The notes under the pieces are model-generated. The model was given only the letters and a program-made list of their open reading frames with translations. It was not told where the DNA came from and searched no databases. 33,720 nt of DNA from Eggerthellaceae bacterium (GTDB lineage Bacteria; Actinomycetota; Coriobacteriia; Coriobacteriales; Eggerthellaceae): assembly GCA_017440565.1 (NCBI GenBank), contig JAFSHA010000096.1:1-33720 (forward strand). Reading direction: 5' to 3'. Position 1 is the first letter of the stretch. Every line of letters starts with the position of its first letter. Below, piece by piece: positions 9,286 to 27,422 of the stretch. The position numbers and the translations under genes are program-made.

Positions 9286-9327
9286 CGCTTTAAACTACAA
9301 CCTACTTGTTGGAAATGCTTCCAGCAC

Positions 9328-9357
9328 AAAGAAGCGAGGCAATGGCCTCGCTTCTTT
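9328..9357 (+). terminator. strong hairpin terminator after CoA-transferase
   Basis: 13-base perfect arms (9328-9340 and 9345-9357) with a four-base loop, ending in CTTCTTTG. It lies between the CoA-transferase stop codon and the thioesterase ribosome-binding site, so it may allow partial read-through. Confidence 0.75.
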
Positions 9358-9431
9358 GCAAGATGGGTAAACCTCTCGCCTTATATACGTCTCATCCATA
9401 TCTTCAGCCCACAACCGTGAAGGAGAAGGCC

Positions 9432-9917
9432 ATGAAAACACTCAATCCTGCCCATATCGAAGCTCTGTTTGCCCTCATCAACCGGTCTCCCTACTTCGAA
9501 CTCTTGGGAATGAAGCTTGTTGAGATGCGCAGTGGATATTGCAAAGCCATCGTGGATCTTGAGAGAAAGCATCTCAACGCTTTTGGAGGCGTACACGGAG
9601 GCGCATACGCCTCGCTCGTGGATACTGCCGCCTATTGGGCTCTTTATCCCGAATTAGACGAAGATGCGGGCTTCATAACGCTCGACCTTAGCGTGAGTAA
9701 CTTGCGCGCCGTACGTGAGGGACGTATCGTCATCGAGGGTAGCGTAATCAAGCGGGGAAGAAACATCGCGCTTTGCGAGGCATCGGCCTTTGATGAACAG
9801 GGCAGACTACTTGTTCACTGTACCTCCAAGCAGTTTCTAAGCCCTACGCTCCAACCCATGAGCGCAGCCATCCTTGAGCTCGGATGCGACCCCCTACCCC
9901 CGAAGTTCCTCAACTGA
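9432..9917 (+). CDS. PaaI-type hotdog-fold acyl-CoA thioesterase
   Basis: A 161-residue single hotdog domain that hydrolyses acyl- or aryl-CoA to free acid and CoA. The PaaI/YdiI-type signature FGGVHGGAYASLVDTAAYWA places His55-Gly-Gly and Asp64 at the expected active-site helix. A longer frame from 9306 would run through the terminator hairpin. ATG 9432 with AAGGAG six bases upstream is therefore chosen. Position after the CoA-transferase and convergent with an acyl-CoA ligase suggests a release or proofreading role for CoA intermediates of the block; inferred. Confidence 0.85.
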   Translation: MKTLNPAHIEALFALINRSPYFELLGMKLVEMRSGYCKAIVDLERKHLNAFGGVHGGAYASLVDTAAYWALYPELDEDAGFITLDLSVSNLRAVREGRIVIEGSVIKRGRNIALCEASAFDEQGRLLVHCTSKQFLSPTLQPMSAAILELGCDPLPPKFLN

Positions 9918-11802: not shown

Positions 11803-12999
11803 CTAGTCGAGGTAGGCGAGCCTACCTCCGTGGCGAAGGCACTCGCGCGCGATGGTGACACGCTGCACCGGCGGTGCACCTTCCTCAAGCCACAAAGCTC
11901 GACAGTCGCGATACAGGCGCTCGGTAGGCCCATAGGGAGAGTCCTCGAAGTAGCCGTCGCCGCCGAAGATCTCGAGCATCTCATCAGACACGCGACGCAC
12001 CGCATCGATCGAGAACAGCTTGCACATGGCAGCCTTCTCATCGACGTAGTCGTTGTGCGGGTCGGCGTCGAAATCCTTTGCGAAGTCGTACACCATGCAA
12101 CGCAGGGCATGTGTGGCGGTTGCCATATCAGCGATCTTCATGCGAATGGCCTGACGAGTGGAAATGGGCTTGCCGAATGTAATGCGATCATTGGCTCGTG
12201 CAATGCTCATCTCGAGCATGCGCTGGCACATTCCCAAGTTGGAGGCGGCAATATGAACGCGCGAGATAGACAGCGAATGGATGGCGATCTCCATACCCTG
12301 GCCCTCCTTGCCGAGCAGGTATTTGGGATCGAGGCGCACGTTCGTAAACTTCAGCCCGGCGTGGCCAGCGCCACGGCAGCCCATCATATGGGGCATGTCG
12401 ACGAGCTCAAAGCCCGGAGCATCCATGGGAACGAAGAAAGCAGACAGTCGCGTGTCCTTGTCGTCATCGGGGTTAGTGACGGCAATGACATAAGCGTACT
12501 GGGAGCAATCGGTGTGCGAGATAAGCCACTTCTCGCCATTGAGCAGGTACGAACCGTCGGGTTGCTTGATAGCGGTGCTGTGGACGTCGGCTCCCGTACC
12601 GCCGGTCTGCTCGGTGAGGGCAAAGCAGGTGAACACCGACTTGTCCTGGAACTTAGGCATGAACTCAGTCTTGAGCTCCTCGCATCCGTATTCATCAAGG
12701 ATGCGCCAGTTCAAATCAGCCGCATAATGCAAGTGCATGCGCATGCCGCCAGGACCACGGCTGAACTCCTCCTGAACCTTCAATATCTCAAGCTCGCTCA
12801 AGTCCCAACCGCCATACTCAGACGGCAATGCGAAACGGTACAGGTCATTCTCCCGAGCAAGATCGAAAAACTCTGCGGGGAATTTATTGGTGCGTTCCAC
12901 CTCCTTCTGCATTTGCTCAAAGGGGCCTTCCGCAAGCGCACGGACTTTCTCAAGATATGAAGCAAAGGCCTCATCGGAGATCTTGGCATTCGGATTCAT
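11803..12999 (-). CDS. acyl-CoA dehydrogenase (ACAD copy 2)
   Basis: A 398-residue ACAD. ALTEQTGGTGADVHSTA takes the place of the usual LTEPxAGSD motif. NGEKWLISHTD, the MMGCRGAGHAGLKFTNVRL flavin-domain segment and IFGGDGYFEDSPYGPTERLYRD follow. LEEGAPPVQR keeps a Glu at the MCAD-type catalytic position. The diverged loops set it apart from the other three ACADs in this window, implying a different substrate. ATG 12999 has GGAGGAGGGCGT directly upstream. It diverges from the crotonase gene over a region with nested inverted repeats and precedes the acyl-CoA ligase on the same strand. Confidence 0.9.
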   Translation of the reverse strand: MNPNAKISDEAFASYLEKVRALAEGPFEQMQKEVERTNKFPAEFFDLARENDLYRFALPSEYGGWDLSELEILKVQEEFSRGPGGMRMHLHYAADLNWRILDEYGCEELKTEFMPKFQDKSVFTCFALTEQTGGTGADVHSTAIKQPDGSYLLNGEKWLISHTDCSQYAYVIAVTNPDDDKDTRLSAFFVPMDAPGFELVDMPHMMGCRGAGHAGLKFTNVRLDPKYLLGKEGQGMEIAIHSLSISRVHIAASNLGMCQRMLEMSIARANDRITFGKPISTRQAIRMKIADMATATHALRCMVYDFAKDFDADPHNDYVDEKAAMCKLFSIDAVRRVSDEMLEIFGGDGYFEDSPYGPTERLYRDCRALWLEEGAPPVQRVTIARECLRHGGRLAYLD

Positions 13000-13313
13000 A
13001 CGCCCTCCTCCTCACTATCTGTTGCCTAACCGTTGCTGCTGGCAATCATAGTACGCCGCAAACGTCCCTTGCGAACTGCAATTATCCAACATCCCAATTG
13101 AAAGATCCTATTGGAGCATAGTCTACGTTAATTCCCCTTGTCTCCAATACACTCAATCTGTCGAATATGGGTGAATCGAGAAACATATTTATTAATTTAT
13201 CCGTAGTAATTTACTTTGACACTCGACAACATACAAGTTACCTCGAACACTTCCGAGGTAAGTACGGATAAATCTGTTCATTGTGTATAAAAGCACAGGA
13301 AAGGGGTTATCAG
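13000..13313. other. divergent intergenic region, ACAD2 / crotonase
   Basis: 314 bases without a gene. The ACAD2-proximal part (13000-13190) shows only its ribosome-binding site. The crotonase-proximal part carries the outer and inner inverted repeats listed separately. A TTGACA (13216-13221) lies between them but I find no -10 at proper spacing; TATAAA at 13286-13291 is an alternative -10 without a good -35. Confidence 0.55.
13195..13273. promoter_or_regulatory. paired operator-like inverted repeat, ATTTATCCGTA / TACGGATAAAT
   Basis: Two perfect inverted 11-base copies at 13195-13205 and 13263-13273, 57 bases apart, carrying the TTATCCGT core shared with 7872-7880 and 26551-26564. They bracket a second inverted repeat, TTACCTCG / CGAGGTAA (13238-13245, 13254-13261). 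The layout suggests a dimeric regulator binding two sites around the promoter. Confidence 0.55.
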
Positions 13314-14192
13314 ATGAGCGTCTACCAGGAAAGCTACCATCTGCCCGAGTTCACCTACGAGTACGAGAAGCTGAAGATCGAGCGCCGCGGCCCGGTTTAC
13401 ATCTGCTCGTTCAACGATGCCCAGAACCTCAACGCCATGTCCTACCAGCAGATGGCGGAGTTCAACGACTTCCTCATCAAGGTTCGCATGGACAAAGACT
13501 GCCGCGTCATCGTGCTCACCGGCGAGGGCAAGTCCTTCTGCGCTGGCTTCAACCTGAATGACCTCGCACTCGATCCGCCGGAGGATATGGGTCGCATCCA
13601 GCGTGACTTCTACATCATGCAGCGTATGTGCTCCGACCAGATCATCAACATGCGTCGCTGCGAGCAGCCCATTATCGGTGCTCTCAAGGGTTACGCCGTC
13701 GGAGGCGGCCTGTCCATCTCCTGCGCTTGCGACATGCGTGTTCTCGGCGAGTCCTTCAAGATGAATGCCGGCTATCTGTCCATCGGCTACACGGGCACCG
13801 ATATGGGCGGCGCATTCTTCCTCCCGAAGATCGTCGGCTACGCACGCGCTGCCGAGATCCTCATGAACCCTGCACGCTTCGACGCCGCCAAGCTTTATGA
13901 GTGGGGCTTCGCCAATCGCGTGGTTGCCGACGACGATGTGCTCGAAACCGCCGTCGCCATGGCTGAGGAGATGTGTGCGGCCACCGCGCCGTTTGGCCTG
14001 CGCCTTACCAAGGAATGCCTGCAGTCCTCTCTCGACGGCACCAGCTTCGAGAACGTCATCAAGATGGAGAACCGCAACCAGGTGCTCGCCTCCAATACCA
14101 ACGATGGCATCATGGGCACCCTCAAGATGAACCCGAAGAATCGCGAAGACGTCAAGGCCAACCCCGAGAAGTACGCCTTCCACAACATGTAG
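13314..14192 (+). CDS. crotonase-family protein (enoyl-CoA hydratase/isomerase-like), atypical active site
   Basis: A 292-residue crotonase fold protein. GKSFCAGFNL (about 72-81) and KGYAVGGGLSISCACD (about 125-140) form the CoA oxyanion-hole region. The two Glu residues that catalyse hydration in classical crotonase (the GGGCE and QPE positions) are not evident: the first is Ser and the second falls in an NAGYLSIG segment. Instead TGTDMGGAFFLP puts Asp163 where 4-chlorobenzoyl-CoA dehalogenase has its catalytic Asp and where some EchA-type proteins have DMG. It could be a hydratase of the EchA subgroup, an isomerase or a hydrolase. ATG 13314 follows AGGAAAGGGG. It has a strong terminator after it. 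Confidence 0.88.
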   Translation: MSVYQESYHLPEFTYEYEKLKIERRGPVYICSFNDAQNLNAMSYQQMAEFNDFLIKVRMDKDCRVIVLTGEGKSFCAGFNLNDLALDPPEDMGRIQRDFYIMQRMCSDQIINMRRCEQPIIGALKGYAVGGGLSISCACDMRVLGESFKMNAGYLSIGYTGTDMGGAFFLPKIVGYARAAEILMNPARFDAAKLYEWGFANRVVADDDVLETAVAMAEEMCAATAPFGLRLTKECLQSSLDGTSFENVIKMENRNQVLASNTNDGIMGTLKMNPKNREDVKANPEKYAFHNM

Positions 14193-15002: not shown

Positions 15003-16139
15003 TTAGTAGCTCTTGTCCAAGATCTTTGCAATGACAGTACGCTGGATCTGGTTCGTACCCTCGAAAATCTGGAAGATTTTCGCATCGCGCATCAATTTTT
15101 CAACCGGATAGTCCTTGCTGTACCCGTAGCCGCCAAATACCTGCACGGCATTCGAGGTCACCTCCTGCATGCAATCGGTGACAAACGTCTTAACTATGGC
15201 GCCTTCGAGACGCACCAAATCTCCTGCATCCATCATACGCATTGCGTTGTTTACCAGGCAACGTGAGGCTTCGACCTTGATCGCCATATCCGCCAACAAA
15301 CCCTGCACCAGCTGAAACTCGATGATCGGCTTTCCGAACTGCTTGCGCTGCTTCGCATACGACACCGCCTCATCTAGGGCTCGCTGCATAATGCCAACGC
15401 CAAGGGTCGATATGAAGGCACGAGAGAGATTCAGGGCGTTCAAAGCAATGCTCATGCCCTGCCCTTCGCATCCGATTACGGCGCTTTCGTGGACGCGCAC
15501 GTTCTCCATGACGACTTCACATGTATCCGACAGCCTGAAGCCCATCTTGTGCTCACGCGCCCCCGCGTAAAGCCCCGGGGTTCCCGCGTCAACCAGAAAT
15601 GCCGTGATGCCCTTACCGCCCGCCGCAGGATCTGTCTTGGCGAAGATCACATAGATAGACGCAATGGAGCCGTTGGTGATGAATGTTTTCGTTCCATTGA
15701 GCACATAGTGATCTCCATCTCGTGTGGCGGTTGAGCGCATGGACGCGACATCCGATCCCGCACCAGCCTCGCTCAAACAGAAAGCCGCAAATCCCGGATT
15801 CGTCGCCTCGACGAAATGGCGGGCCTGCTCGGGAGTACCGCTTAGATGGATGTTGCGAAAGGCTACGAAATTGGTCACGAAGGTATCGGCGTACGCCGCA
15901 TCGACTTTCGCCAACTCCTCAAACATCATGGCGCAGGTTTCGTAGTCAAGCCCCATGCCGCCAAACTCCTCGGGAATCTCTACCATGTGAAGCCCCATGT
16001 CAAAACCCCATTTGAACAGCTCGGGCGGGCATTCACCGGCCTCGTCAGCTGCTGCCACATAAGGCTTGATCTCGCTCTCGGCCACATCGCGCACAAGCTC
16101 TATCAGCTCTCGCTGCTCCTCGGTGTACATAAGAGCCAT
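15003..16139 (-). CDS. acyl-CoA dehydrogenase, short-chain/butyryl-CoA type (ACAD copy 3)
   Basis: A 378-residue ACAD with the most canonical sequence of the four. MYTEEQRELIELVRDVAE starts the helical domain. LSEAGAGSDVASM and NGTKTFITNG are the FAD/substrate motifs. RKQFGKPIIEFQLVQGLLADM and VFGGYGYSKDYPVEKLMRDAK follow, and FEGTNQIQR contains the catalytic Glu. It resembles butyryl/short-chain ACADs that use ETF as partner. It is the last gene of the operon etfB-etfA-EMO-NUDIX-MBL-ACAD, so its electrons probably go to this ETF. ATG 16139 follows AGGAGG; a second ATG three codons later is possible. Confidence 0.93.
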   Translation of the reverse strand: MALMYTEEQRELIELVRDVAESEIKPYVAAADEAGECPPELFKWGFDMGLHMVEIPEEFGGMGLDYETCAMMFEELAKVDAAYADTFVTNFVAFRNIHLSGTPEQARHFVEATNPGFAAFCLSEAGAGSDVASMRSTATRDGDHYVLNGTKTFITNGSIASIYVIFAKTDPAAGGKGITAFLVDAGTPGLYAGAREHKMGFRLSDTCEVVMENVRVHESAVIGCEGQGMSIALNALNLSRAFISTLGVGIMQRALDEAVSYAKQRKQFGKPIIEFQLVQGLLADMAIKVEASRCLVNNAMRMMDAGDLVRLEGAIVKTFVTDCMQEVTSNAVQVFGGYGYSKDYPVEKLMRDAKIFQIFEGTNQIQRTVIAKILDKSY

Positions 16140-16233: not shown

Positions 16234-17058
16234 CTATGTGTGCTCCTCCAGCAGACCCCTGTCGAATGCATATCGCAGCTGGGCGTTCACGCTGCGTTCC
16301 GCAGCTTGCAAAAGAGCGCTGTCGACGTCGTTGTAAATCACATCGACAATACGATCGGCTTTCGCAGGCACACCCGAGCGCACCGCGGAAACCACTTGAC
16401 GCAATCGTTTGAGTCGGTGCCGACGACACTGCGCAACCCTCGTCGCAGGATCGTCGATGGTCTTCCCATGACCCGTCAACAACCTCGACACACGTCCCAC
16501 ATCTACCAAACCCGCGATCACGTCAAGCGAGGCAAGATACTGCTCAAGAGAGCCATCGGGCCAGCACACCATTGTCGAACTGTGCGCAAACAGCACATCG
16601 CCCGTTAAAAACAGCCCCTCTCTTTCGATCAGATATCCAACTGAATCGCTCGAATGCCCGAACAGCAAAACAACCTCTACGTCCATGTCGAACCCCGGAA
16701 TCGAAAGCTTTCCCTCCTTGACATTACCTCCCGCATGGGAATAAACAGGCGCACCCGTCAAGGAAGAAAGTTCCTCGGCCGCCGGCGCGTGATCCAGATG
16801 CACATGGGTGAGCAAGATTCCTGCGATGCGCTTCTCCTCAGCACGGCAGAATGAAAGAATGCGCCGCACGTGGCCCGAATCACGTGGCCCTGGATCAACC
16901 ACCACGCAGCCCTTAGAACCTGGCGGCGACACGATCCAGGTATTCGTGCCCACATTGGTTAACGGCGAAGGGTTCGGCGCGATCATGCAGTAAGCGCACT
17001 CGCTCACCCAGCCGCCTTCCCAGGCAGTCTCAACTCGCCCGCTCATGTCAATTCTCAT
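16234..17058 (-). CDS. MBL-fold metallo-hydrolase, LACTB2-like
   Basis: A 274-residue metallo-beta-lactamase fold protein. THVHLDHAPAA (about 84-94) is the HxHxDH zinc-binding motif, preceded by NVGTNTWIV and VVVDPGP, and followed by YSHAGG and a LTGDVLFA segment with a further metal-ligand Asp. The LLTGHG motif fits the C-terminal region of LACTB2-like proteins. The ATG overlaps the NUDIX stop codon (ATGA), showing translational coupling. Such proteins hydrolyse thioesters, glyoxalase-type substrates or RNA. In this operon a CoA-thioester or repair role is plausible but inferred. Confidence 0.87.
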   Translation of the reverse strand: MRIDMSGRVETAWEGGWVSECAYCMIAPNPSPLTNVGTNTWIVSPPGSKGCVVVDPGPRDSGHVRRILSFCRAEEKRIAGILLTHVHLDHAPAAEELSSLTGAPVYSHAGGNVKEGKLSIPGFDMDVEVVLLFGHSSDSVGYLIEREGLFLTGDVLFAHSSTMVCWPDGSLEQYLASLDVIAGLVDVGRVSRLLTGHGKTIDDPATRVAQCRRHRLKRLRQVVSAVRSGVPAKADRIVDVIYNDVDSALLQAAERSVNAQLRYAFDRGLLEEHT

Positions 17059-17948
17059 GAGATTTCGCTCCTTAAAACCACGGCCCCGTCTTCTAGTGCA
17101 ACGGGCCTGAGCATAACGTTAGGCACGCACGTACCCGAAAACAACTCGTCAATCGAATGCGTCCGTGCAAGCATGGAGAGGTTCGAGACCGTAGGGGGCA
17201 CCACAATCGCCTCACCTCGATCAGCGAGGTCAAGCATCTCTTTCGGCCTTATCCACGCCGCACCGTTCGATTCGGTCGTCTTACTGTCCGCACGCTGCCC
17301 TTCGGGTATGCGCGCCGCGAAGAAGCAGGTATCATAGCGACGCGATTCGTATGGCGGAGTGATCCAATGACTCTGCAGACTTAGGAGGTCGGCGCGCAAA
17401 ACAAGTCTCTCGCGCTTAAGGAAAGCCGAGAGAGACAGCTCATGTCCGTCAAGCGATCTGCGTGCATCGAGCCATGAAGAAGCATTCAGCGCCAACCCAC
17501 CCGCTTTCGCAGGACTGGCAAGCAACACGCCGCATTCCTCAAACAACTCTCGCACGGCGGCAACCACAAATGCTGCGGCATCCGACTCACTGCATCCAAT
17601 CTTTTCCGACCACTCCGCTGGACTTGGACCATCCCACGGACAGGGATCGTAATCAAGGCGGCTTACCCCTCCGCCCGGAAAGACAACGGCGTCTGGGACG
17701 AAGGCCATCGTATGGGCACGACGCATCATGAACACCTCAAGGCCCGCATCTGCACCCTCACGCAACAGCATGACCGTAGCAGCAAGTCTCGGCTCGGTAG
17801 GCACGAAGGCCTCGTTAGCTAGATACGCCTCTATCTTGGGCACGGCGGAAGCCATTGGCTTGGTTTCCAGGAACGATCCTGGGACCAACGCGTCCCTCAG
17901 GCCTCTCTTCCTCAACTCGGACATATCACAACCCCAATTCCCTCGCAT
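17055..17948 (-). CDS. NUDIX hydrolase, NUDT19/CoA-diphosphatase-like
   Basis: A 297-residue NUDIX protein. VVFPGGGVSRLD (about 88-99) and AVRELFEECGVLL (131-143) together form the NUDIX box, but about 35 residues are inserted between the Gly and RELxEExG halves. This is typical of NUDT19-type CoA and acyl-CoA diphosphohydrolases. The N-terminal MMRRAHTMAFVPDA motif also matches that group. It would cleave CoA to 3',5'-ADP and phosphopantetheine. The start ATG 17948 is one base after the EMO stop codon; an internal ATG at codon 9 is an alternative. It is coupled to the MBL gene by a four-base overlap, suggesting the pair controls CoA or acyl-CoA levels. Confidence 0.85.
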   Translation of the reverse strand: MRGNWGCDMSELRKRGLRDALVPGSFLETKPMASAVPKIEAYLANEAFVPTEPRLAATVMLLREGADAGLEVFMMRRAHTMAFVPDAVVFPGGGVSRLDYDPCPWDGPSPAEWSEKIGCSESDAAAFVVAAVRELFEECGVLLASPAKAGGLALNASSWLDARRSLDGHELSLSAFLKRERLVLRADLLSLQSHWITPPYESRRYDTCFFAARIPEGQRADSKTTESNGAAWIRPKEMLDLADRGEAIVVPPTVSNLSMLARTHSIDELFSGTCVPNVMLRPVALEDGAVVLRSEIS

Positions 17949-17949
17949 C

Positions 17950-19950
17950 TCATGCGGTCTGAATCGATGAATCCGCCTGAGCCTCCAACAGAAGCTCCGC
18001 TACATCCTTCACAACCACCTGATCGTCTAAGCCAGACAATCCATCAGAAAGCATCGACAAGCAGAAAGGGCACGCGGTTGCCGCAATCTTAGCGCCCGTC
18101 GCAAGCACCTGTTCTGATCGCAAAACGCTGACGCGATGCTCCTGAGGCTCTTCAAGCCACATTCGCCCACCGCCCGCGCCGCAGCACAGCGCGTCTTCCC
18201 GGCTCATCGAGCACTCCACCACTTCATGCCCGCTTGCGGCAATCAGAGTACGCGGTTCGTCGTAGAGCCCCCGGTAGCGGCCGAGATAGCACGAATCATG
18301 AAATGCCACCAAACTCGACGAGCGCGCCTCTTCCTGCGGCAAACCTTTCAAGCGCCCCTGCGCCACTAAGGACGCCAGCAACTCAGTATGATGAACGACC
18401 TCGAAACAGCCTCCCATCTGAGGATAGTCACGTGAAAGCACCTGCAGGCAATGGGGGCACTGCGTCACGATCTTTTTCACGCCATATGCATTCAGAGTCT
18501 CTATGTTTTCTTGGGCAAGCAAGTAATACACGTATTCGTTGCCCAGTCTGCGAGCCGAATCGCCGCAGCACTTCTCCTCGTTTCCTAAGATGGCAAAACT
18601 CACGTCTGCACTGCGCAGCAACGCAACTACAGCAGCCGACACCTTCTTTCCCCGTGCATCCAACGCACCCGAACAGCCAGGCCAGTACAGGTATTCAGCA
18701 TCCGGATTCTCCGTCAGCGTAGGAACCCCAAGGGCCTCAGCCCATTTCTCACGAGTACGCCATCCCAAGCCCCAAGGGTTGCCGTTGTTCTCCAAATTGC
18801 GAAACATGGCTTGCGCTTCCTGCGGAAATGCGCTTTCCATGGATACCTGATACGTTCGCATGCGTGCAATTTTGATGGGATGCTCTAGATGAGAAGGGCA
18901 ATGCTGCGTACAAGAAGCGCATGTCGTGCACGCCCACAGCGCCTCTTCGCTCACAACATCACCCACAAGACGCACTTCCCCAGCGGCGCCAGGATGAGCC
19001 TCAAGGCCCGCGTTCAGCCTTTGCATCAGCTCTTTCGGCGAAAGGGCCTTGCCGCTCAAGTTGGCGGGGCACGATTCCACGCACCGATTGCACCCTACGC
19101 ACGCCTGCGCGTCCAGCAGGTCTTTCCACGTTAAATCAGACGCGACGCCGGCACCCATCACATCGAGCGACTCATCCTCAAAATCAATGGGGTCGAGCGT
19201 TCCGCGCGGCCTCAGATCGCGACAGTACACAGCCGCAGGAATGAGAAATACGTGCACGAGCTTCGAATAGGCCCAGTACGCGATAAGGGCAAACGCAAGT
19301 GCCATATGGCCCCACCAAAACACCTGGTGAAGCGCCTCGACGGCGCTGGCATTCATGCCAGAGAATGCAAGAGAAAGCGCGTATCCCACCGGAGACCACG
19401 CCGCCCACGGATCGTTTGTTCCCACGATACGTAGGGCCTCCACCACAAACCCGGACACGCCCACCGCCAGCAAAAACACCAGCACCGCATAGTCAGCCAT
19501 CGTCGACTCGAGCGTATCGCGCTTAAGAATACGCCGCACAATGCAACCGACCATAGCAAGGCAGAAAGCCAAGCCAGCAAGGTCGACGGTAAGCGCGAGA
19601 AAATACAGATAAAAGTTGCCGCTCACAATGTCGAGGCCCAGGTCAATATAAGCCGCATAGCTTGCCGTAGCTACGAGAAGGATGAGCATGCTCGCATACA
19701 TGGCAACATGCATCGCGCCTACGCCGCGCTTGCGCACCACACGCAACTGAAGAAAGGCGTCTTTCAGAGTTCCTTCGAGCCTCTTGCAAGCATTATCCGT
19801 ACGTTCGACAGGCCTGCCCGCTTTCCACAAGCGCATTCTTCGTATGAAACAGAAGGCGAACGCACCCAGCGCGGCAGCCATGCACACATACATGATCCAC
19901 TCATGATCGACGTTCCAAAAAACCTCCCTCGAAGGCACTTCGGCACTCAT
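17950..19950 (-). CDS. membrane ETF:menaquinone oxidoreductase-type Fe-S protein (EMO / HdrD-like)
   Basis: A 666-residue fusion of a NarI-like cytochrome b domain and an HdrD-like domain. Five membrane segments are visible at about 17-35, 82-101, 115-138, 153-172 and 212-236, with His81, His208, His215 and His233 as possible haem ligands. Two ferredoxin-type clusters follow: CVGCNRCVESCP (284-295) and CTTCASCTQHCP (341-352). Two CCG domains come next, with CCG at 461-463 and 589-591. This architecture is known as the ETF:(mena)quinone oxidoreductase of Geobacter and Syntrophus and EtfD of mycobacteria. It lies nine bases after etfA, strongly supporting electron flow between ETF and menaquinone. 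It is also near-coupled to the NUDIX gene. Confidence 0.9.
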   Translation of the reverse strand: MSAEVPSREVFWNVDHEWIMYVCMAAALGAFAFCFIRRMRLWKAGRPVERTDNACKRLEGTLKDAFLQLRVVRKRGVGAMHVAMYASMLILLVATASYAAYIDLGLDIVSGNFYLYFLALTVDLAGLAFCLAMVGCIVRRILKRDTLESTMADYAVLVFLLAVGVSGFVVEALRIVGTNDPWAAWSPVGYALSLAFSGMNASAVEALHQVFWWGHMALAFALIAYWAYSKLVHVFLIPAAVYCRDLRPRGTLDPIDFEDESLDVMGAGVASDLTWKDLLDAQACVGCNRCVESCPANLSGKALSPKELMQRLNAGLEAHPGAAGEVRLVGDVVSEEALWACTTCASCTQHCPSHLEHPIKIARMRTYQVSMESAFPQEAQAMFRNLENNGNPWGLGWRTREKWAEALGVPTLTENPDAEYLYWPGCSGALDARGKKVSAAVVALLRSADVSFAILGNEEKCCGDSARRLGNEYVYYLLAQENIETLNAYGVKKIVTQCPHCLQVLSRDYPQMGGCFEVVHHTELLASLVAQGRLKGLPQEEARSSSLVAFHDSCYLGRYRGLYDEPRTLIAASGHEVVECSMSREDALCCGAGGGRMWLEEPQEHRVSVLRSEQVLATGAKIAATACPFCLSMLSDGLSGLDDQVVVKDVAELLLEAQADSSIQTA

Positions 19951-19959
19951 GGGTCATCC

Positions 19960-20961
19960 TCACGATGCCGCGCGCAACGCACGCAATTCTTGGACGAGAA
20001 GGGGCACCGCCTCAAATAAATCGGCGACTATGCCGTAATCGGCTATGGAAAAGATTTCAGCGTCAGGATCCTTGTTGATGGCAACGATGCACTTCGAGGC
20101 CGTCATCCCCGCCATATGCTGAATGGACCCGGAAATACCACATGCGATGTAAAGGCTGGGAGCAACCGTCTTGCCTGTCTGGCCAACTTGGTATTGGGCA
20201 TCAATCCATCCCTCGTCAACAGCCGGGCGCGATGCGCCGACTGCGGCACCCAGTTCATTTGCCAAATCTTCGAGCAGGGCGAATCCATCAGGCCCCTTCG
20301 CCCCCCGACCGCCCGAAACGACGACATCGGCCTCAGAAAGATCAATGCGACCCGATACGGCTTTCGCCAACTCACGTACATCCTTAGCCAAAGAACGGTC
20401 GGCGAGGACTATTGTCTCGACGCTCGCCTGCCCACTACCGACACATTCCGCGACGTCAAACGCTTTCGGTCGCACGGTGATCAGCACCGGCGCATTCTCG
20501 CTCGACACGCTTACTATTTCGACAAGCTTACCCGAATACGGAAAGCGTTCGACAAGGAAAGAGCTCGGGCGTGCCTCATCGCGCTTCAAACCTACAACAT
20601 CCCCCAGCAGCATCGATCCCAGCTTCTGCGCAAGCCTAGGGGCAATCGAACGAGCCGGAGAACCATCGGCAAACAGAACCAAACTGGGTCGGCGATCCTC
20701 CTCGCGGGCAAGACCAGCCAGCGTTTCAAGCACCGCTTCCTGCACAAACGCCGTATTGCATCCGCCCTTCAAAACGATGATACGATCGGCTCCGCGTAAG
20801 CTTAGCTGCTCCACCTGCTCATCAGGCCGCATGCCATACGCGATCGCGCACACTCTGTCGGCAGCAGAACCCTTCATCTGGCTCGCTGCCCCCATCATCT
20901 CGAGCGCAACCCTGCGTAAGCCATCCTCGCGAGCCTCCACGATAACCCAAATGTCGGCCAT
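19960..20961 (-). CDS. etfA: electron transfer flavoprotein alpha subunit
   Basis: A 333-residue ETF alpha chain. The C-terminal FAD domain has VVVSGGRGAKGPDGF (about 213-227), VGQTGKTVAPSLYIACGISG (about 259-278) and the motif AINKDPDAEIFSIADYGIVAD (about 294-314), all diagnostic. Length is normal and there is no N-terminal ferredoxin extension of the type seen in caffeyl-CoA reductase EtfA. It heterodimerises with the EtfB encoded 70 bases upstream and transfers electrons between acyl-CoA dehydrogenases and the membrane oxidoreductase encoded next. Confidence 0.95.
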   Translation of the reverse strand: MADIWVIVEAREDGLRRVALEMMGAASQMKGSAADRVCAIAYGMRPDEQVEQLSLRGADRIIVLKGGCNTAFVQEAVLETLAGLAREEDRRPSLVLFADGSPARSIAPRLAQKLGSMLLGDVVGLKRDEARPSSFLVERFPYSGKLVEIVSVSSENAPVLITVRPKAFDVAECVGSGQASVETIVLADRSLAKDVRELAKAVSGRIDLSEADVVVSGGRGAKGPDGFALLEDLANELGAAVGASRPAVDEGWIDAQYQVGQTGKTVAPSLYIACGISGSIQHMAGMTASKCIVAINKDPDAEIFSIADYGIVADLFEAVPLLVQELRALRAAS

Positions 20962-21031: not shown

Positions 21032-21790
21032 TTACAAGACTTTCGCCTCTTCCCTAAGGCAGCGAACCGTCTCGGTCACGGCTTCGGCCGTGCCGCCGGA
21101 GACGATGCGGCCACCACCCCTCGGCGGCTTCACCGCGCGCGATACCAGAGTAGCCTCACCGGAGCAATCAAAATCTGCGGCAGCCAAATACTCGATGGGC
21201 TTCTTGCGCGCCTGAATCACGTCACGGACCGTCGGATAACGCGGCTCCGCGAAACCCTGCTGTACGGAAACGACAAGCGGAAAAGGCAGGGAAGCTTCGA
21301 ACGAGCCATCGTCGGTTTCGCATTCGACGCGCACTCCGCCATCTTCGATTTGCAGCGAGGTAACCATGCTGGCAAACGGCCAGTGAAGCAGCTCGGCGAC
21401 ACGACCCATAACCTGGGCATTGCCCGTATCCCCCGATTTCCAACCGCCCATAATCACGTCGAATTCCTCAGCTCGCATCGCCTCAGCCAATTGAGCGGCT
21501 TTCAGAGCCGGCGACATCTCATGCCATGCGACATCCTCGATGACAATCGCGCGATCACCGCCCATAGCAAGCGCATGTCGCACGGCGGTCAACGCCGAGT
21601 TCTCCCCCACAGAAACGATGACGACCTCACCGCCCCGCTCTTCTTTGAGCTGCACGGCACGTTCGACACAAAACTCCCCGTATGGATCTATCACCTGGGC
21701 TTGGCCGACCATGTCAAGCGAACCATCAGGCTCAACCCTAATCATCTCCTCGGTGTCGACTATTTGCTTTACGCATACGGCAATCTTCAA
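21032..21790 (-). CDS. etfB: electron transfer flavoprotein beta subunit
   Basis: A 252-residue ETF beta chain beginning MKIAVCVKQIVDTEEMIRV, with VIDPYGEFCVERAVQLKE and MGGDRAIVIED typical of the family. A DTGNAQVMGRVAELL motif sits in the nucleotide-binding region, and QQGFAEPRYPTVRDVIQARKK is near the recognition loop. It is the first gene of the six-gene minus-strand operon, with GGAGGTTTGGCTTG before the ATG. Whether the site binds AMP (simple ETF) or a second FAD (bifurcating ETF) cannot be settled by eye; the linked EMO argues for a menaquinone-linked ETF. Confidence 0.94.
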   Translation of the reverse strand: MKIAVCVKQIVDTEEMIRVEPDGSLDMVGQAQVIDPYGEFCVERAVQLKEERGGEVVIVSVGENSALTAVRHALAMGGDRAIVIEDVAWHEMSPALKAAQLAEAMRAEEFDVIMGGWKSGDTGNAQVMGRVAELLHWPFASMVTSLQIEDGGVRVECETDDGSFEASLPFPLVVSVQQGFAEPRYPTVRDVIQARKKPIEYLAAADFDCSGEATLVSRAVKPPRGGGRIVSGGTAEAVTETVRCLREEAKVL

Positions 21791-21997: not shown

Positions 21998-22771
21998 ATG
22001 TCAATTTCCGCACATCAGATCGTCGAGGTGCCATGCTCCTGCGAGCAAATCTCGCTCGAACGCGTGCTCGAGAGAGCCTTTCCGCAAGGTGAACCCGATC
22101 CAGCCACAAAAGAAAAGACACGGGCAATGCTCAACGCATGTCTTGTCGAGATCGAACCAAAAGGCGTGTACAAGATCTTCAACCCAGCCACCTGCACGCT
22201 CCCGCCAGAATACACCGAGCCAGGCATCAAGCTTGTCGGAACGCTGGTCGTACTCAAAGGGCAGCTAATATATGAAAAGCTCTCCAAAGCGAAACACTGC
22301 GTCATGCTGGGGGCAACCGCCGGCAGTCCTGACAAAATCAATCGTCTCGCCAGCACCTTTGTTACGTCAGATGAGGACCGTCGCCTCTTCGAGGCAATTC
22401 TAGCCGTGATGGCCGAACACGCCGCCAGTCTCACCAACCTTGCCGTTGTAAAGGAAGCCATGGCGCTCGGCTTGAGCACCGATGACTTCATCAGCCCTGG
22501 CACAGGCGACTTTCCCCTTGAGCAAAACGACCAAATTCACTTCTACACACAAGCTGAACAACGCTTGGAAATGCCGTTGGAGAACAAGATGCAGGCCCTT
22601 GACCCCTGGAACATCCTCGGCGTCGTAGCCCTGTACGACGAATCGCAAAGAAGTCGCCGCCGCGCATGCGGTCGCTGCAAGTTCCGCACGTTCTGCAGTA
22701 TCCGCGCCATCGGCATGAATTGCCACGGCCGTAAAGGCTCGTTCAAGAAGCCCGCAGCCGAAAGCGCCTGA
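21998..22771 (+). CDS. vitamin B12-dependent methionine synthase activation domain-like protein
   Basis: A 257-residue protein. Residues 76-104 (IKLVGTLVVLKG... KHCVMLGATAGSP), FISPGTGDFPLEQNDQI (164-180) and the downstream LENKMQALDPWNILGVVALYDE follow the pattern of stand-alone MetH reactivation-domain proteins, where SPGYGDxPL is the hallmark. The C-terminus has a CGRCKFRTFC cluster (Cys 224, 227, 233), as in several such proteins. These proteins help reactivate corrinoid methyltransferases with SAM. No methyltransferase or corrinoid protein is present in the window, so its partner is elsewhere or its role here differs. ATG 21998 follows TTGGAGAACGC. The call comes from motif memory, not a search. 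Confidence 0.62.
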   Translation: MSISAHQIVEVPCSCEQISLERVLERAFPQGEPDPATKEKTRAMLNACLVEIEPKGVYKIFNPATCTLPPEYTEPGIKLVGTLVVLKGQLIYEKLSKAKHCVMLGATAGSPDKINRLASTFVTSDEDRRLFEAILAVMAEHAASLTNLAVVKEAMALGLSTDDFISPGTGDFPLEQNDQIHFYTQAEQRLEMPLENKMQALDPWNILGVVALYDESQRSRRRACGRCKFRTFCSIRAIGMNCHGRKGSFKKPAAESA

Positions 22772-23035: not shown

Positions 23036-24220
23036 TTAGAGCGTGTACAGATGGTCGGCGTCCTCAGCAACCTTCGCGTACTCCTTGAGGATACCGCGAC
23101 CGGAAATGTGCACCATGATCTCGACAGTGCCGCCGCCGATCTGGAAGCCACGGCAGTCGAGCATGAGACGAGACACGCGCGTCTGATCGGTGTAGCCCAG
23201 ACCACCCATGAGCTGAAGAGCGCGGGAGCACACATCGGTCAGAGCCGGTGCGCCATAACGCTTGAGCATTGCAGCATCGTTGTTGACCGGAATGCCATTA
23301 TCAAGCTTCCAGCAGGTGCGATACAGGAAGTTACGAGTGTTGGAAAGAGCGATCTGCATCTCAACGATGTGCTCCTGAACGAGCTGGAAGGTCTTGATGC
23401 CCTTACCAAACTGCTGACGCTCGTTAACCCAGGCACATGCATCTTCCATGGCAGCCTGAGCCTCACCGAGAAGCTCGGCGAGAAGCACGCAGCGCTCCCA
23501 CTCGAAGTTCTTCATAAGCTGGTAGAAGCCCTTGCCCTTGATGCCAAGAAGCTCGGTCTCCTCGACGACAACATCGTCAAAGTGAATCATCGAGAAGGGC
23601 ATGATCTGCATGCCGATCTTGTTGAGAGGCTCGATGGTAACGCCCGCGGCATCCGCCGGAACGAGGTACATCGACATTTCCTTGTTCTCGCGAGACGGAT
23701 CCTCATCCTTGCATACCACGATGAAGCCAGCGGAGTTCTCACCCGAGGTAACCCAAGTCTTGGTGCCGTTGATGTGAATCTTGCCATCCTCGCCCTTGGT
23801 GGCGGTGGTGGTCATACCCTGATTGTCAGAACCGGCACCCGGCTCAGAAATGGCCAGGCAGTACGGCGGATAGCCGTTCTCCTTGTAATAGTCCATCGCG
23901 TACTTGACCTGCTCAGGATTACCAAACTCACACATATCGAACATGATGAGCAGATTGGGAGCCATGGGAATGTTGCCGCCAGCATGGTTGAGCTCTTCGA
24001 TGATCATGGCCATGGTCTGATGGTCAACAGGCTTTCCGCCGTGCTCCTCGGGCAGACCATACAGGCCCCAGCCAGAGTCAACCCAAGACTTTGCAACCTT
24101 CGGATCAATACCGCGGTTCTTGTAACCCTCGGCGATGACCTCCTCGGTCAGGTGAACCTTCGCCCACTCGCGAATGCCCTTCTTGATCTCAAGCTGTTCC
24201 GGGGTGTATCCGAAATCCAT
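23036..24220 (-). CDS. acyl-CoA dehydrogenase, alternative catalytic-base type (ACAD copy 4)
   Basis: A 394-residue ACAD with LAISEPGAGSDNQGM, NGTKTWVTSGENSAGF, RQQFGKGIKTFQLVQEH and LMGGLGYTDQTRVSRLMLDCR. The usual C-terminal catalytic Glu is missing: the motif reads IGGGTVEIM where other ACADs have an EGT sequence. A Glu is instead present in FEWERCVLL, matching the helix-G Glu used by isovaleryl- and long-chain-type ACADs and, as I recall, CaiA. It is therefore probably active with a relocated base. It is the second gene of a two-gene operon after the OYE/FadH-like flavoenzyme (59-base gap), with AAGGAGG before the ATG. That pairing suggests both act on the same unsaturated acyl substrate. 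Confidence 0.9.
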   Translation of the reverse strand: MDFGYTPEQLEIKKGIREWAKVHLTEEVIAEGYKNRGIDPKVAKSWVDSGWGLYGLPEEHGGKPVDHQTMAMIIEELNHAGGNIPMAPNLLIMFDMCEFGNPEQVKYAMDYYKENGYPPYCLAISEPGAGSDNQGMTTTATKGEDGKIHINGTKTWVTSGENSAGFIVVCKDEDPSRENKEMSMYLVPADAAGVTIEPLNKIGMQIMPFSMIHFDDVVVEETELLGIKGKGFYQLMKNFEWERCVLLAELLGEAQAAMEDACAWVNERQQFGKGIKTFQLVQEHIVEMQIALSNTRNFLYRTCWKLDNGIPVNNDAAMLKRYGAPALTDVCSRALQLMGGLGYTDQTRVSRLMLDCRGFQIGGGTVEIMVHISGRGILKEYAKVAEDADHLYTL

Positions 24221-24279
24221 CTTTCCTCCTTAAAGGTAATAACTGTCTATTCAAAGCACCAATACGGTGATTGAACCCA

Positions 24280-26361
24280 CTAGATTGCCATCGAGGCTTC
24301 GAAGCCGCCCTTGACCGCCTCGAGAGTGCGATACACCTTGCCCTCCGGCGTCGTTGCGTCGCCGATAAGCTTGGCATTCGGGAAAGCCTTCACAATCTCG
24401 TCGTAGAGCTTCGTGTTGGCCTCGACTCCCAGCGAGGTGAGCACGGTGTCGCACTCAAGCAGCTGAACTTCGCCAGTCTCGAGGTTTTGAACCTTTGCAC
24501 CCTTCTTCGTCACCTCGACAAGCTTCGTGGAGGGCATAAGCTTCACGCCCTTCTTCTTTACCAGGTTGATAGTGGGGTTCTTATCGATGATGCCGATGCC
24601 GTTACCCATCTTCTTGGCCTCTTCGATGACCGTGATCTCACGGTTGTCGCACATTGCCTCGGCAACCTCGAGTCCGGCGAATCCGCCGCCCACAACCACG
24701 ACACGCTTGCCCACGATGGCGGTGGGGCCAGACGCCATGTTCAAGCCGAAGCGCATGAACTCAACGGTTCCTCCCTGAGCCTTGATGGCTGCCACGGCCG
24801 CCTTCCACAGCATGCCCTTGCCTTCCGGCACCTTCCCCGCGCACATTTCCTTGATATCCTCGGACTTCACGACGTTCTTGCCGTCGATGCCAGGCACGTC
24901 GAGCGCGATGATGCCACCACCGGGAGAAACGATGACCTCGTCAGGATTCAGAGCCGCAAGGGTCTCAGGCGTAATCTCGGTCTTGAGCTTGAGCGTGATG
25001 TTCTCGTGCAGCTTAACCTCTTCATTCCAATAAGAGACAAGCGGTTCGATCTTTGCGTTGAGTACCTGAGCCATGTTGAGCAGGCCGGCAACGCGATCGC
25101 TCTTGTCAACCAGCGTCACCTTGTGACCGCGAACGGCCGCCACACGCGCAGCCTCAAGACCACCTGGGCCCGCGCCCACCACGACCACATGCTTCGGCGC
25201 ATCAGCAGGCTTGTCCTCGGGAAGACCAAGCGCAATACCGCCCCACACGTTGGCGTTGACCGAGCACTGGCAAGGCTTACCAATGAAGATGTTGTCCAGG
25301 CAACGGCTGCATACGATACAGGGGCGAACCTGTTCAGGATGGCCAGCGGCAACCTTGGCGGCAGTGTAAGGATCGGCGATAAACTGACGAGCCATGCCCA
25401 CCGCGTCACCATAGCCTTCGTTGACGACCTTGTCGCACATATCAAGGCTGTTGATGCGCGTGCCGGGGAACACGGGCTTTGAGGTCACGGTCTTTACCTG
25501 CTTGGCCAGGTCGATAAACTCACCTTCGGGAACAATCTGGTTGGCTACCGGACGCGGCGCCTCATGGAAGCCCGCCTGAATGCTCCACGCATCAACGCCA
25601 TGCTTCTCGACGATGGGGATGATTTCAAGCGTATCCTCAATGCGATTGCCATTCGGCATCAAATCGTCAGCAGAAATGCGAACGAGAATGGGCATGTCTT
25701 CGCCGCAGGTGCGGTGAATTTCATCAATGATCTCGCACAGCAGTCGAGCGCGATTCTCAGCACTCCCACCATACTCATCGGTACGATGATTGGAATACTT
25801 CGAAAGGAATCGCATCACCATGTAACCGATGCCCGCATGAATCTCGATAATATCGATGCCGCAGTCCTTGGCGCGCTTAGCTGCCTCGCCATACTGCTTG
25901 ACTACGACAGCGATCTCCTCCTTCGTGTATTCACGTTCGGGCATGCCGACAAACGGGCCACTCGGAACATCCTTGGAAGGAGCGTAGGAAAGAAGCTCGA
26001 CGTCGCCATTCGGTCGCCACTCATAGCAAAGCTGCAGCTGAGCTGCAACCTTCGCGCCATGCTTGTGGCACGCCTCGGCAACACGCACCCATCCGGGGTT
26101 AAAGCAGTCGTCCCAAATGCCGCATGCGCCCGTGGTGGTGTGGTACTTGGGATGCGTGTCAAAACAGTCGCATACATAAGCGGAGCCAACCTCAATAAGG
26201 CCCACGCCGCCCTTGGCTCTCTGCTCGTAAAAGTCCACCAGATCATCGGAGATGTGGTAGTTATCAACCTTCTCGATGGTCATCGGCAGCATCACGAAAC
26301 GATTTCGCACCTCGACTTTGCCGATATTGAAGGGTTCCAGAAGTTTCTGATACTTTGCCAC
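24280..26361 (-). CDS. OYE-type FMN/4Fe-4S/FAD oxidoreductase (2,4-dienoyl-CoA reductase / BaiCD / TMADH-like)
   Basis: A 693-residue multi-cofactor reductase. Residues 1-345 are an Old Yellow Enzyme barrel binding FMN; Tyr180 (GIGYMVMRF) and His266 (GFHEAPR) match the Tyr/His pair of FadH. CIVCSRC (348-354) and Cys366 form the 4Fe-4S site in a CxxCxxC spacing, closer to trimethylamine dehydrogenase than to FadH's CxxCxxxC. A FAD Rossmann motif VVVVGAGPGGLE (392-403) and an NAD(P) motif VVVVGGGFAGLE (554-565) complete it. Relatives reduce enoates, dienoyl-CoA or bile-acid enones using NAD(P)H. First gene of an operon with ACAD4, divergent from the TetR gene. Confidence 0.9.
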   Translation of the reverse strand: MAKYQKLLEPFNIGKVEVRNRFVMLPMTIEKVDNYHISDDLVDFYEQRAKGGVGLIEVGSAYVCDCFDTHPKYHTTTGACGIWDDCFNPGWVRVAEACHKHGAKVAAQLQLCYEWRPNGDVELLSYAPSKDVPSGPFVGMPEREYTKEEIAVVVKQYGEAAKRAKDCGIDIIEIHAGIGYMVMRFLSKYSNHRTDEYGGSAENRARLLCEIIDEIHRTCGEDMPILVRISADDLMPNGNRIEDTLEIIPIVEKHGVDAWSIQAGFHEAPRPVANQIVPEGEFIDLAKQVKTVTSKPVFPGTRINSLDMCDKVVNEGYGDAVGMARQFIADPYTAAKVAAGHPEQVRPCIVCSRCLDNIFIGKPCQCSVNANVWGGIALGLPEDKPADAPKHVVVVGAGPGGLEAARVAAVRGHKVTLVDKSDRVAGLLNMAQVLNAKIEPLVSYWNEEVKLHENITLKLKTEITPETLAALNPDEVIVSPGGGIIALDVPGIDGKNVVKSEDIKEMCAGKVPEGKGMLWKAAVAAIKAQGGTVEFMRFGLNMASGPTAIVGKRVVVVGGGFAGLEVAEAMCDNREITVIEEAKKMGNGIGIIDKNPTINLVKKKGVKLMPSTKLVEVTKKGAKVQNLETGEVQLLECDTVLTSLGVEANTKLYDEIVKAFPNAKLIGDATTPEGKVYRTLEAVKGGFEASMAI

Positions 26362-26550
26362 GGAACAGCCCCTTTCACCTTGTTTGCTCGTCGCTCAACG
26401 GAGCGCGATCGTCTTAAGATCAATCGAAACGCTAGGGGAAATGCACGGAGCTGGTTTTCTCCTCGGTCTGCCTTGCCCCTTTGTCCAATTGGGAAGAAAG
26501 CCGAAACTCTCTTTACCGCTATTGTAGGAAGGAGCTGTTTTCCTATCGAT

Positions 26551-26564
26551 GGATAAGTTATCCG
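26551..26564. promoter_or_regulatory. operator-like palindrome GGATAAGTTATCC
   Basis: A perfect 6+1+6 palindrome (26551-26563) followed by G, so it contains the TTATCCG core found in two other divergent promoter regions of the block. Located between the reductase/ACAD4 operon and the TetR gene; the best candidate site for the TetR protein. Inferred. Confidence 0.5.
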
Positions 26565-26646
26565 TTTTGGTGGAATTTGAATTTCATTTACTATATAAAA
26601 ATCAAGTTTTAGGTGAATTTCAAATGACTGAATATTATTATTGCTA

Positions 26647-26688
26647 TTGATAATAAAACTATTAGAGATATATACTCACATTATGAGT
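26647..26688 (+). promoter_or_regulatory. promoter and operator-like repeat of the TetR gene
   Basis: -35 TTGATA (26647-26652) and -10 TATACT (26671-26676), spacer 18. An inverted repeat ACTCA-CATTA-TGAGT (26674-26688) overlaps the -10 end and predicted start site, an ideal place for autorepression. Confidence 0.5.
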
Positions 26689-26741
26689 AATTTGTCCTAT
26701 TGTATTAAAGAGAGTCTGTAACGCCAAACAAAGGGGAAGCC

Positions 26742-27422
26742 ATGCAGCGCAGAATCAAGAAGACAGAGAACGCCAGCGCCTTGGGCACCATGCTCACTTT
26801 TGCCGATGCGTTTGTCGAGCTATGCGAGGAAACGCCCCTTAAAAAGGTATCCATCAGCGACATCATTGAGCGCACAGGGAAGAACCGAAAAACGTTCTAC
26901 TATCATTTCGAAAACAAGGACTACCTCATTATCTGGATATTCCGCCACGACCTGAGCACGGCATTGAAAGCCCGTTTCTCCGAGTCGTCTCTCATCTACG
27001 AAGAACCCTCACCCGCTGCAACTTCACGTCTTCCCTTCTATATTCGTCAGAAGTCGGGGATTCGCTCGCTCAACCATGCGGAGTTCTTCGATTGCTTCGC
27101 CAGCGTCCTTGAATCACGCCGAAGCTTCTATTACCAGGCCCTCATGGAGACAGGACCCGGTTCGCTTCACTCTCATTTGTTCGATCTATACTCTCAGGCT
27201 TTCAAAAGCGACATTGACCTGGTTCTCTCCAACCGATATCTACCCAAACGAGAGATCGATTTTCTCGCCGAGTTTTACGCAAGTGCATTTCTCTCCTACT
27301 TTATCCGTAAATGCGGGCAGGCAAATCAACCTCTCCTGGGTACTGCGGGCGGCTTTGCAAACATTATCCACGGTTCGCTCGAGCATGCCATCAACAGCGC
27401 TCAACTTCGAAGGAACCTGTAG
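26742..27422 (+). CDS. TetR-family transcriptional regulator
   Basis: A 226-residue regulator. The N-terminal helix-turn-helix has TPLKKVSISDIIERTGKNRKTFYYHFENKDYLI (about 33-65), the standard TetR pattern of a DNA-binding helix followed by the FYYHF motif. The C-terminal 160 residues are helical and unrecognised, as usual for the ligand domain of TetR proteins. ATG 26742 follows AAAGGGGAAGCC. It is divergent from the reductase/ACAD4 operon and is probably the regulator of that operon. A wider role is suggested by the shared TTATCCGT motif. The ligand is likely an acyl-CoA or free acid of the pathway; inferred. Confidence 0.88.
   Translation: MQRRIKKTENASALGTMLTFADAFVELCEETPLKKVSISDIIERTGKNRKTFYYHFENKDYLIIWIFRHDLSTALKARFSESSLIYEEPSPAATSRLPFYIRQKSGIRSLNHAEFFDCFASVLESRRSFYYQALMETGPGSLHSHLFDLYSQAFKSDIDLVLSNRYLPKREIDFLAEFYASAFLSYFIRKCGQANQPLLGTAGGFANIIHGSLEHAINSAQLRRNL

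Follow-up and report, generated by a model that had tools for sequence, protein, structure and literature searches.

In a 33,720-nucleotide stretch of an Eggerthellaceae genome (contig JAFSHA010000096.1 of the 2.41 Mb assembly GCA_017440565.1; hereafter the window, with positions counted from its first letter), the gene of an OYE/FadH-like Fe-S flavoenzyme, here termed OYE, is directly followed by that of an acyl-CoA dehydrogenase (ACAD)-like protein, ACADx. We propose, with a probability of roughly 50%, that the two belong to a conserved Eggerthellaceae module in which an unsaturated acyl-CoA is reduced in two steps by two electron sources. The linked partner, the pattern of catalytic residues and a co-occurring link to the quinone pool together offer a testable hypothesis on how gut anaerobes respire; if it is true, the pair may let gut anaerobes of the Eggerthella family breathe unsaturated acids.

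In the sampled class genomes ACADx is found only next to OYE

OYE (24280..26361, minus strand; 693 residues, with a GTG start at 26361 and a stop codon ending at 24280) and ACADx (23036..24220, minus strand; 394 residues), the latter predicted to be an enoyl-CoA reductase/dehydrogenase of the CaiA/YdiO type, lie on the same strand with 59 bp between them, and no terminator-like site was found between the two genes. A TetR-family regulator gene (26742..27422, plus strand; Pfam TetR_N and TetR_C_8) is divergent from the pair, across a putative promoter/operator region of 380 bp (26362..26741) with promoter-like sites on both strands. The original prediction, made from the letters alone, had described an OYE/FadH-like reductase and an ACAD in an operon under a divergent TetR gene, and the arrangement is borne out by coordinates, Pfam domains and conservation; strand, gap and conservation suggest that the pair is indeed transcribed as an operon.

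We surveyed 396 genomes of the class and 396 of the phylum, each set drawn evenly from a larger group and the two sharing some genomes. OYE family members (at least 46% identity) occur in 29 of the class genomes, all of the window's own family, 21 of them at 72% or above, seven at 60-64% and one at 46%; among the matches listed for the phylum genomes, no further member lies above 36%. The window OYE is also 82-90% identical to the OYEs of ten named loci from Paraeggerthella, Adlercreutzia, Eggerthella sinensis and metagenome-assembled genomes, all Eggerthellaceae/Eggerthellales. ACADx is present in 19 class genomes at 87% or above and in one, G154, at 54%, with the next matches at or below 51%. 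In all 20 it is the next gene after OYE, in the same orientation and 59-169 bp away (171 bp in the named locus L010), and none of the 396 class genomes was found to have an ACADx of at least 54% anywhere else. The linkage is more than chance. Separation of the genes in most relatives, named in the original prediction as the outcome that would speak against it, is thus not what these genomes display. A genus mate of the window's genome, G384, yielded neither OYE nor ACADx, nor the electron-transfer proteins EtfB and EMO described below, at the thresholds used, and the module is therefore accessory.

The TetR gene adjoins OYE divergently in 24 of the 29 OYE-family loci and is not visible in four, and in G154 a TetR of 30% identity sits 4.4 kb off. 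Weak blocks recur in the divergent region, AGGACA in 13 of 21 and TGTCC[AG]TCG in 15 of 21. A TGAANTTCA repeat in the same region was considered as TetR operator and rejected, being found in the window only among 30 loci and absent from the other 29.

OYE keeps the FadH catalytic pair

OYE combines Oxidored_FMN (216 bits) and Pyr_redox_2 (85 bits) in one chain, both over their Pfam cut-offs, and in having both domains it belongs to the Fe-S flavoenzyme superfamily. In alignments with solved structures, Tyr180 (codon 25822..25824, minus strand) and His266 (25564..25566, minus strand) fall on the catalytic Tyr/His pair of FadH, Y166/H252 in the E. coli enzyme, and the pair is present in 2-naphthoyl-CoA reductase (NCR) too. 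FadH and NCR are CoA-thioester enzymes. All 30 OYE-family rows keep both residues, as the original prediction had it for the window. Both the FadH Tyr and the His are lacking in four other OYEs, of which three belong to the window's own genome. As a separate observation, these three further OYEs, two of which are in tandem, score 407-410 bits on the BaiCD model, less than its cut-off (L076:944-4939, L077:121-2088).

Both Rossmann motifs of OYE are intact, and the second Rossmann strand ends in an acidic residue (E or D), which suggests NADH as cofactor. The 4Fe-4S motif, C348-x2-C351-x2-C354-x11-C366 (25264..25320, minus strand), has the spacing x2-x2-x11, compared with x2-x3-x11 in FadH, x2-x2-x12 in TMADH and x2-x2-x11 in histamine dehydrogenase (6de6). 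OYE, with CX2CX2CX11C, does not match the superfamily motif CX2CX3CX11-13C (PMC11574389); the four cysteines are kept, as in the other aligned Eggerthellaceae OYEs.

The original prediction had called this spacing TMADH-like, and it raises the alternative of a TMADH-like role for OYE, in which it would dehydrogenate an N-methyl compound and hand the electrons to electron transfer flavoprotein (ETF). The shared CxxCxxC of TMADH and histamine dehydrogenase and the etf genes nearby speak for such a function. The spacing as described is correct, but it is common to all 38 non-FadH rows of the alignment, including the three further OYEs of the window's genome, and is therefore no marker of TMADH. 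TMADH and histamine dehydrogenase also split off from all other rows of the OYE tree with support 100/100, and OYE lies outside their clade and lacks their Tyr/His/Asp triad; the TMADH active-site residues His172 and Asp267 align with Ile178 and Phe265 of OYE. With its Rossmann motifs intact as well, we regard a TMADH-like role as very improbable.

In the OYE tree, for which long branches are warned of, OYE is sister to a second flavoenzyme clade, OYE2, with support 100/99 and does not group with FadH; how OYE, OYE2, FadH and NCR branch relative to one another is uncertain because long branches meet there. The rows of the tree are at least 480 residues long and exclude the named loci L008-L017 as well as OYE pieces from L082-L121. 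Phylogenetic placement had been proposed as a check in the original prediction, and where it was run, for FadH and TMADH, OYE groups with neither. No NCBIfam model claims the protein: BaiCD (NF041087) gives 351 bits against a cut-off of 825, mycofactocin OYE 337 against 793, and bilirubin reductase (BilR long form) 328 against 750. An AlphaFold model of OYE based on nine close sequences was too poor to use (pLDDT 58.6, pTM 0.54).

ACADx has its glutamate at the isovaleryl-CoA dehydrogenase position

ACADx comprises three Pfam acyl-CoA dehydrogenase domains and is 38% identical to YdiO and 34% to CaiA. At the site of the catalytic glutamate in ACADs of the short-chain (SCAD) type it has Gly363 (codon 23132..23134, minus strand), and the idea that it is a dead enzyme was rejected, as Glu242 (23495..23497, minus strand), the predicted catalytic base, occupies the position used by isovaleryl-CoA dehydrogenase (IVD). 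With a Glu at this place, ACADx should be active. In the alignment with IVD (4o5m), DYER and IGAGT correspond to EWER and IGGGT of ACADx. According to PMC10925408, long-chain acyl-CoA dehydrogenase (LCAD) and IVD place the base differently from other ACADs, with the LCAD base extending from helix G. The CaiA/YdiO/IVD arrangement, with Glu at the helix G position and a small residue on the J-K loop, is found in ACADx, and E242 together with G/A363 is invariant in 45 of 45 rows of ACADx, ACADx-like, OYE2-cluster, CaiA and YdiO proteins, the converse (G/S242 with E/D/Q363) in 12 of 12 other ACAD rows. From the ACAD tree we left out identical sequences, matches covering less than 70% of the query and the loci L008-L017, L047-L064 and L137-L145.

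The OYE2 clade provides a second example of the combination. In all 12 genomes OYE2 is accompanied by CaiD- and CaiC-like genes, and 11 of them also have a YdiO-type ACAD there; in the remaining genome the contig stops 1.2 kb past the CaiC-like gene. Five of the 12 have FixC and FixX adjacent as well. The one OYE2-cluster ACAD that was scanned scores 604 bits, over the YdiO cut-off. The order observed in these clusters (L078-L080, L129-L137) is CaiB, MFS, (FixC, FixX), OYE2, CaiD, CaiC and YdiO-type ACAD. An Fe-S flavoenzyme and a CaiA/YdiO-type ACAD are hence found in both clades, with differing gene order, and their co-occurrence in most genomes examined suggests a general partnership.

Elsewhere, the nearest ACADx homologues (46-51%) stand directly before fixA-fixB-fixC-fixX in six of ten fetched regions, five of these with a divergent TetR (L112, L113, L114, L117 and L119) and one without (L120). 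The remaining four (L111, L115, L116 and L118) have other ACAD and ligase neighbours, with fixABCX further on in L118 and fixA at the edge of L115.

A predicted electron route from the quinone pool

Downstream of the pair and on the same strand, the window holds etfB (21032..21790, minus strand; PF01012), etfA (19960..20961, minus strand; PF01012 and PF00766) and the gene of a 666-residue membrane Fe-S protein (17950..19950, minus strand) with a NarI-like membrane part, a 4Fe-4S domain and two CCG domains. These domains and the position beside etfBA predict an ETF:menaquinone oxidoreductase (EMO); CCG and DUF224 are presumably the same domain.

EMO was detected in 16 of 35 tested genomes, namely in 16 of the 20 with ACADx, none of the nine with OYE only and none of six with neither gene, the last chosen by hand. 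EtfB at E <1e-50 marks the same 16 genomes, with matches of only ~1e-21 in G058 and at a second place in G138. The start of etfB is 2.5-4.2 kb downstream of OYE in 13 loci, and in G154 the gene is divergent at 0.3 kb; it is absent at four ACADx loci (G220, G266, G258 and G345), and two further contigs end too early. The neighbour table behind these comparisons used identity floors of 52% for ACADx, 50% for the ligase, CaiB and ACADa-c (see below) and 36% for Etf and EMO, and most of the 29 loci reach only 9-10 kb downstream of OYE. FixC homologues are present in 33 of the 35 genomes (not in G335 and G384), including the four EMO-less ACADx genomes, where FixC is a possible alternative ETF:quinone route; given how widespread it is, FixC is not specific.

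A precedent comes from Syntrophomonas wolfei, for which PMC3582634 describes EtfAB and a neighbouring membrane DUF224 protein as the EtfAB:quinone oxidoreductase that serves butyryl-CoA dehydrogenase.

Between the pair and etfB lies orf257 (21998..22771, plus strand), perhaps a small Fe-S or zinc protein, with a C-terminal C-x2-C-x5-C-x8-C-H invariant in five aligned sequences and no Pfam or NCBIfam match. It is near ACADx in 16 of the 29 loci, all with ACADx.

Direction of the reaction and CoA-thioester genes in the window

The same proteins could work in the opposite direction, with ACADx, EtfBA and EMO oxidizing acyl-CoA to feed menaquinone, and OYE removing the dienoyl-CoA that unsaturated fatty acids give rise to, the part played by FadH in beta-oxidation. 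This is congruent with the FadK-type ligase in the window, with the assignment of EtfAB-DUF224 to butyryl-CoA oxidation in S. wolfei (PMC3582634) and with the E. coli locus in which ydiO and fadK stand together with etf-like genes. On the other hand, Thiolase_N was found in only one of 22 genomes (G355, E 2.4e-12, a weak match) and in none of the 19 of good quality, as opposed to 11 of 14 controls, and 3HCDH_N in three of 22 (G254, G299 and G361), as opposed to seven of 14 controls. The usual enzymes cannot complete the spiral in most of these genomes; complete beta-oxidation is therefore unlikely there, a reductive role is favoured, and we consider the oxidative use quite unlikely.

The window is rich in further genes for CoA thioesters. 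The ligase (10019..11650, minus strand), 12.6 kb on from the pair, scores over the cut-off of the NF004758 model for medium-chain fatty-acid-CoA ligases of the FadK type (789.5 bits, cut-off 736), is 39% identical to E. coli FadK and hints at substrates of medium chain length; homologues of at least 50% are found within 13 kb of OYE in eight of the 29 loci, and L047 and L017 each contain a partial match at the far edge. There are also genes of a class III (CaiB/BaiF-family) CoA-transferase (7975..9285, plus strand), a 4HBT-fold thioesterase (9306..9917, plus strand) and a crotonase-family protein (13281..14192, plus strand). Three ACADs of different types are located within 20 kb of ACADx, namely ACADa (6326..7483, minus strand), ACADb (11803..12999, minus strand) and ACADc (15003..16139, minus strand), each with Glu at the SCAD position. 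Relatives of ACADa have Glu, Asp or Gln there, and an ACADa-type gene also stands behind the ACAD-fixABCX operon in four of the five such loci with TetR (L112, L113, L114, L117 and L119).

A NUDIX hydrolase (17055..17948, minus strand; homologue in 20 of 29 loci) and a metallo-beta-lactamase-fold hydrolase (16234..17058, minus strand; 19 of 29) are perhaps involved in acyl-CoA or CoA turnover. Their genes overlap end to start (16234-17948), and four of the loci that have them near OYE possess neither ACADx nor EMO. The window further holds an MFS transporter, a LysR regulator and, at 27941-30001 (minus strand), a 686-residue protein without Pfam match, with a Gly-rich N-terminus and, as judged by eye, likely membrane segments.

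Proposed mechanism and points that weigh against it

As we envisage it, an acid would be activated by the FadK-type ligase or the CoA-transferase. OYE would then transfer hydride from NAD(P)H via FAD and the 4Fe-4S cluster to FMN and reduce one conjugated double bond of a dienoyl-CoA or other alpha,beta-unsaturated CoA thioester, with Tyr180 and His266 giving protons as in FadH. Subsequently, ACADx, through its catalytic Glu on helix G, would reduce the alpha,beta double bond that is left. The electrons for this step would be supplied by EtfBA, which in turn might receive them from menaquinol via EMO, and the enoyl-CoA would thereby act as an electron acceptor of respiration. TetR may sense substrate or product. 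In its most specific form, as a respiratory stepwise reduction of conjugated dienoyl-CoA (NAD(P)H for the first double bond; menaquinol, EMO and ETF for the second) that makes unsaturated acids terminal electron acceptors of Eggerthella lenta and relatives, the proposal is tentative, and we offer it as a possibility.

The original prediction had conceived of the pair as a relay of two double-bond enzymes, or as a connection of NAD(P)H and ETF pools through one substrate. This is supported in part. Such a relay along a single CoA-thioester pathway is reasonable, because no ACADx of at least 54% was found apart from OYE in the class genomes and because 11 of the 12 OYE2 clusters include a YdiO-type ACAD, and a likely route connects the ETF half to the quinone pool; the two enzymes may share one substrate, through which the NAD(P)H and ETF pools would be joined.

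Several observations weigh against a two-step reductive module. OYE occurs without ACADx in nine of the 29 family genomes (G112, G134 and the seven at 60-64%), and can therefore work alone; these nine are spread over several branches of the OYE tree, with the pair-bearing G154 branching first, which implies more than one loss or gain of the partnership. ACADx attains 412 bits on the YdiO model (NF008997), under the cut-off of 537, and is therefore not a proven YdiO. In OYE2, Gly replaces the FadH Tyr, with His kept, in four of four aligned rows, and the OYE2-cluster ACAD is 2.5-3.7 kb from OYE2, with the CaiD- and CaiC-like genes in the intervening stretch. Four of the 20 ACADx genomes lack EMO and this EtfB, the 35 genomes are of related lineages and therefore do not amount to 35 independent trials, and the Syntrophomonas EtfAB-DUF224 system is drawn as working oxidatively (PMC3582634). 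Finally, a partial oxidation that stops before thiolysis is possible.

The absence of ACADx from nine genomes is also consistent with the two enzymes being co-regulated but serving different branches, OYE acting on a free enone or enoate (from diet, bile acid or steroid) and ACADx on an unrelated acyl-CoA. The nearest NCBIfam models of OYE, those of BaiCD, mycofactocin OYE and bilirubin reductase, fit such a function, each at less than half of its cut-off. However, ACADx of at least 54% was not found without OYE, the ligase, CoA-transferase, thioesterase and crotonase genes of the window point to CoA thioesters, and OYE2 recurs with CoA genes. Aggregated, this renders separate branches doubtful, and we retain the sequential reduction of an unsaturated acyl-CoA as the preferred explanation.

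Comparison with known systems

We found no description of the OYE–ACADx pair in the open-licence PMC literature, subscription journals and supplements being outside the scope. The 10 Eggerthella genomes covered by PMC7371122 together contain 38 Fe-S flavoenzymes; the paper, whose analysis of gene neighbourhoods deals with Clostridia, states that most clades of the superfamily are without known function and that most clusters hold an MFS transporter, many including flavodoxin or ETF domains; 'acyl-CoA dehydrogenase' and words starting with 'etf' are absent from its main text. OYE shares this superfamily with BaiCD, BaiH, DZNR and BilR (PMC7371122, PMC11574389), but scores under both the BaiCD and BilR cut-offs, and its cluster motif differs by one residue from that of the superfamily. 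Equol clusters combine DZNR with fixA and fixB, and in 13 of 18 with fixC and fixX (PMC8898433), and the six-gene bbu cluster (PMC8364193) comprises an ACAD, two CoA-transferases, a ferredoxin, a transporter and a thioesterase, with no OYE.

Among characterized flavoenzymes, E. coli FadH has the domain order and Tyr/His pair of OYE but differs in identity (29%), cluster spacing and place in the tree; proteins from seven fetched loci of the phylum are nearer FadH (36-37%) than OYE. NCR (6qkg) is the best solved-structure match of OYE and has the Tyr/His pair in common, yet it features CxxCxxxC and does not group with OYE in the tree. The adjoining etfB-etfA and membrane CCG-type Fe-S protein resemble EtfAB-DUF224 of S. 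wolfei, which is drawn for butyryl-CoA oxidation, whereas the direction in the window is probably reductive. The closest parallel is E. coli ydiO-ydiQRST-fadK, and likewise caiTABCDE/fixABCX, with an ACAD that has Glu at the IVD position, ETF genes, an ETF:quinone route and a FadK-type ligase. Unlike the ydiO locus, the window has an Fe-S flavoenzyme before the ACAD and a quinone link of the EMO type rather than FixCX. We thus rate the OYE–ACADx module as a variant of the YdiO/FixABCX/FadK kind.

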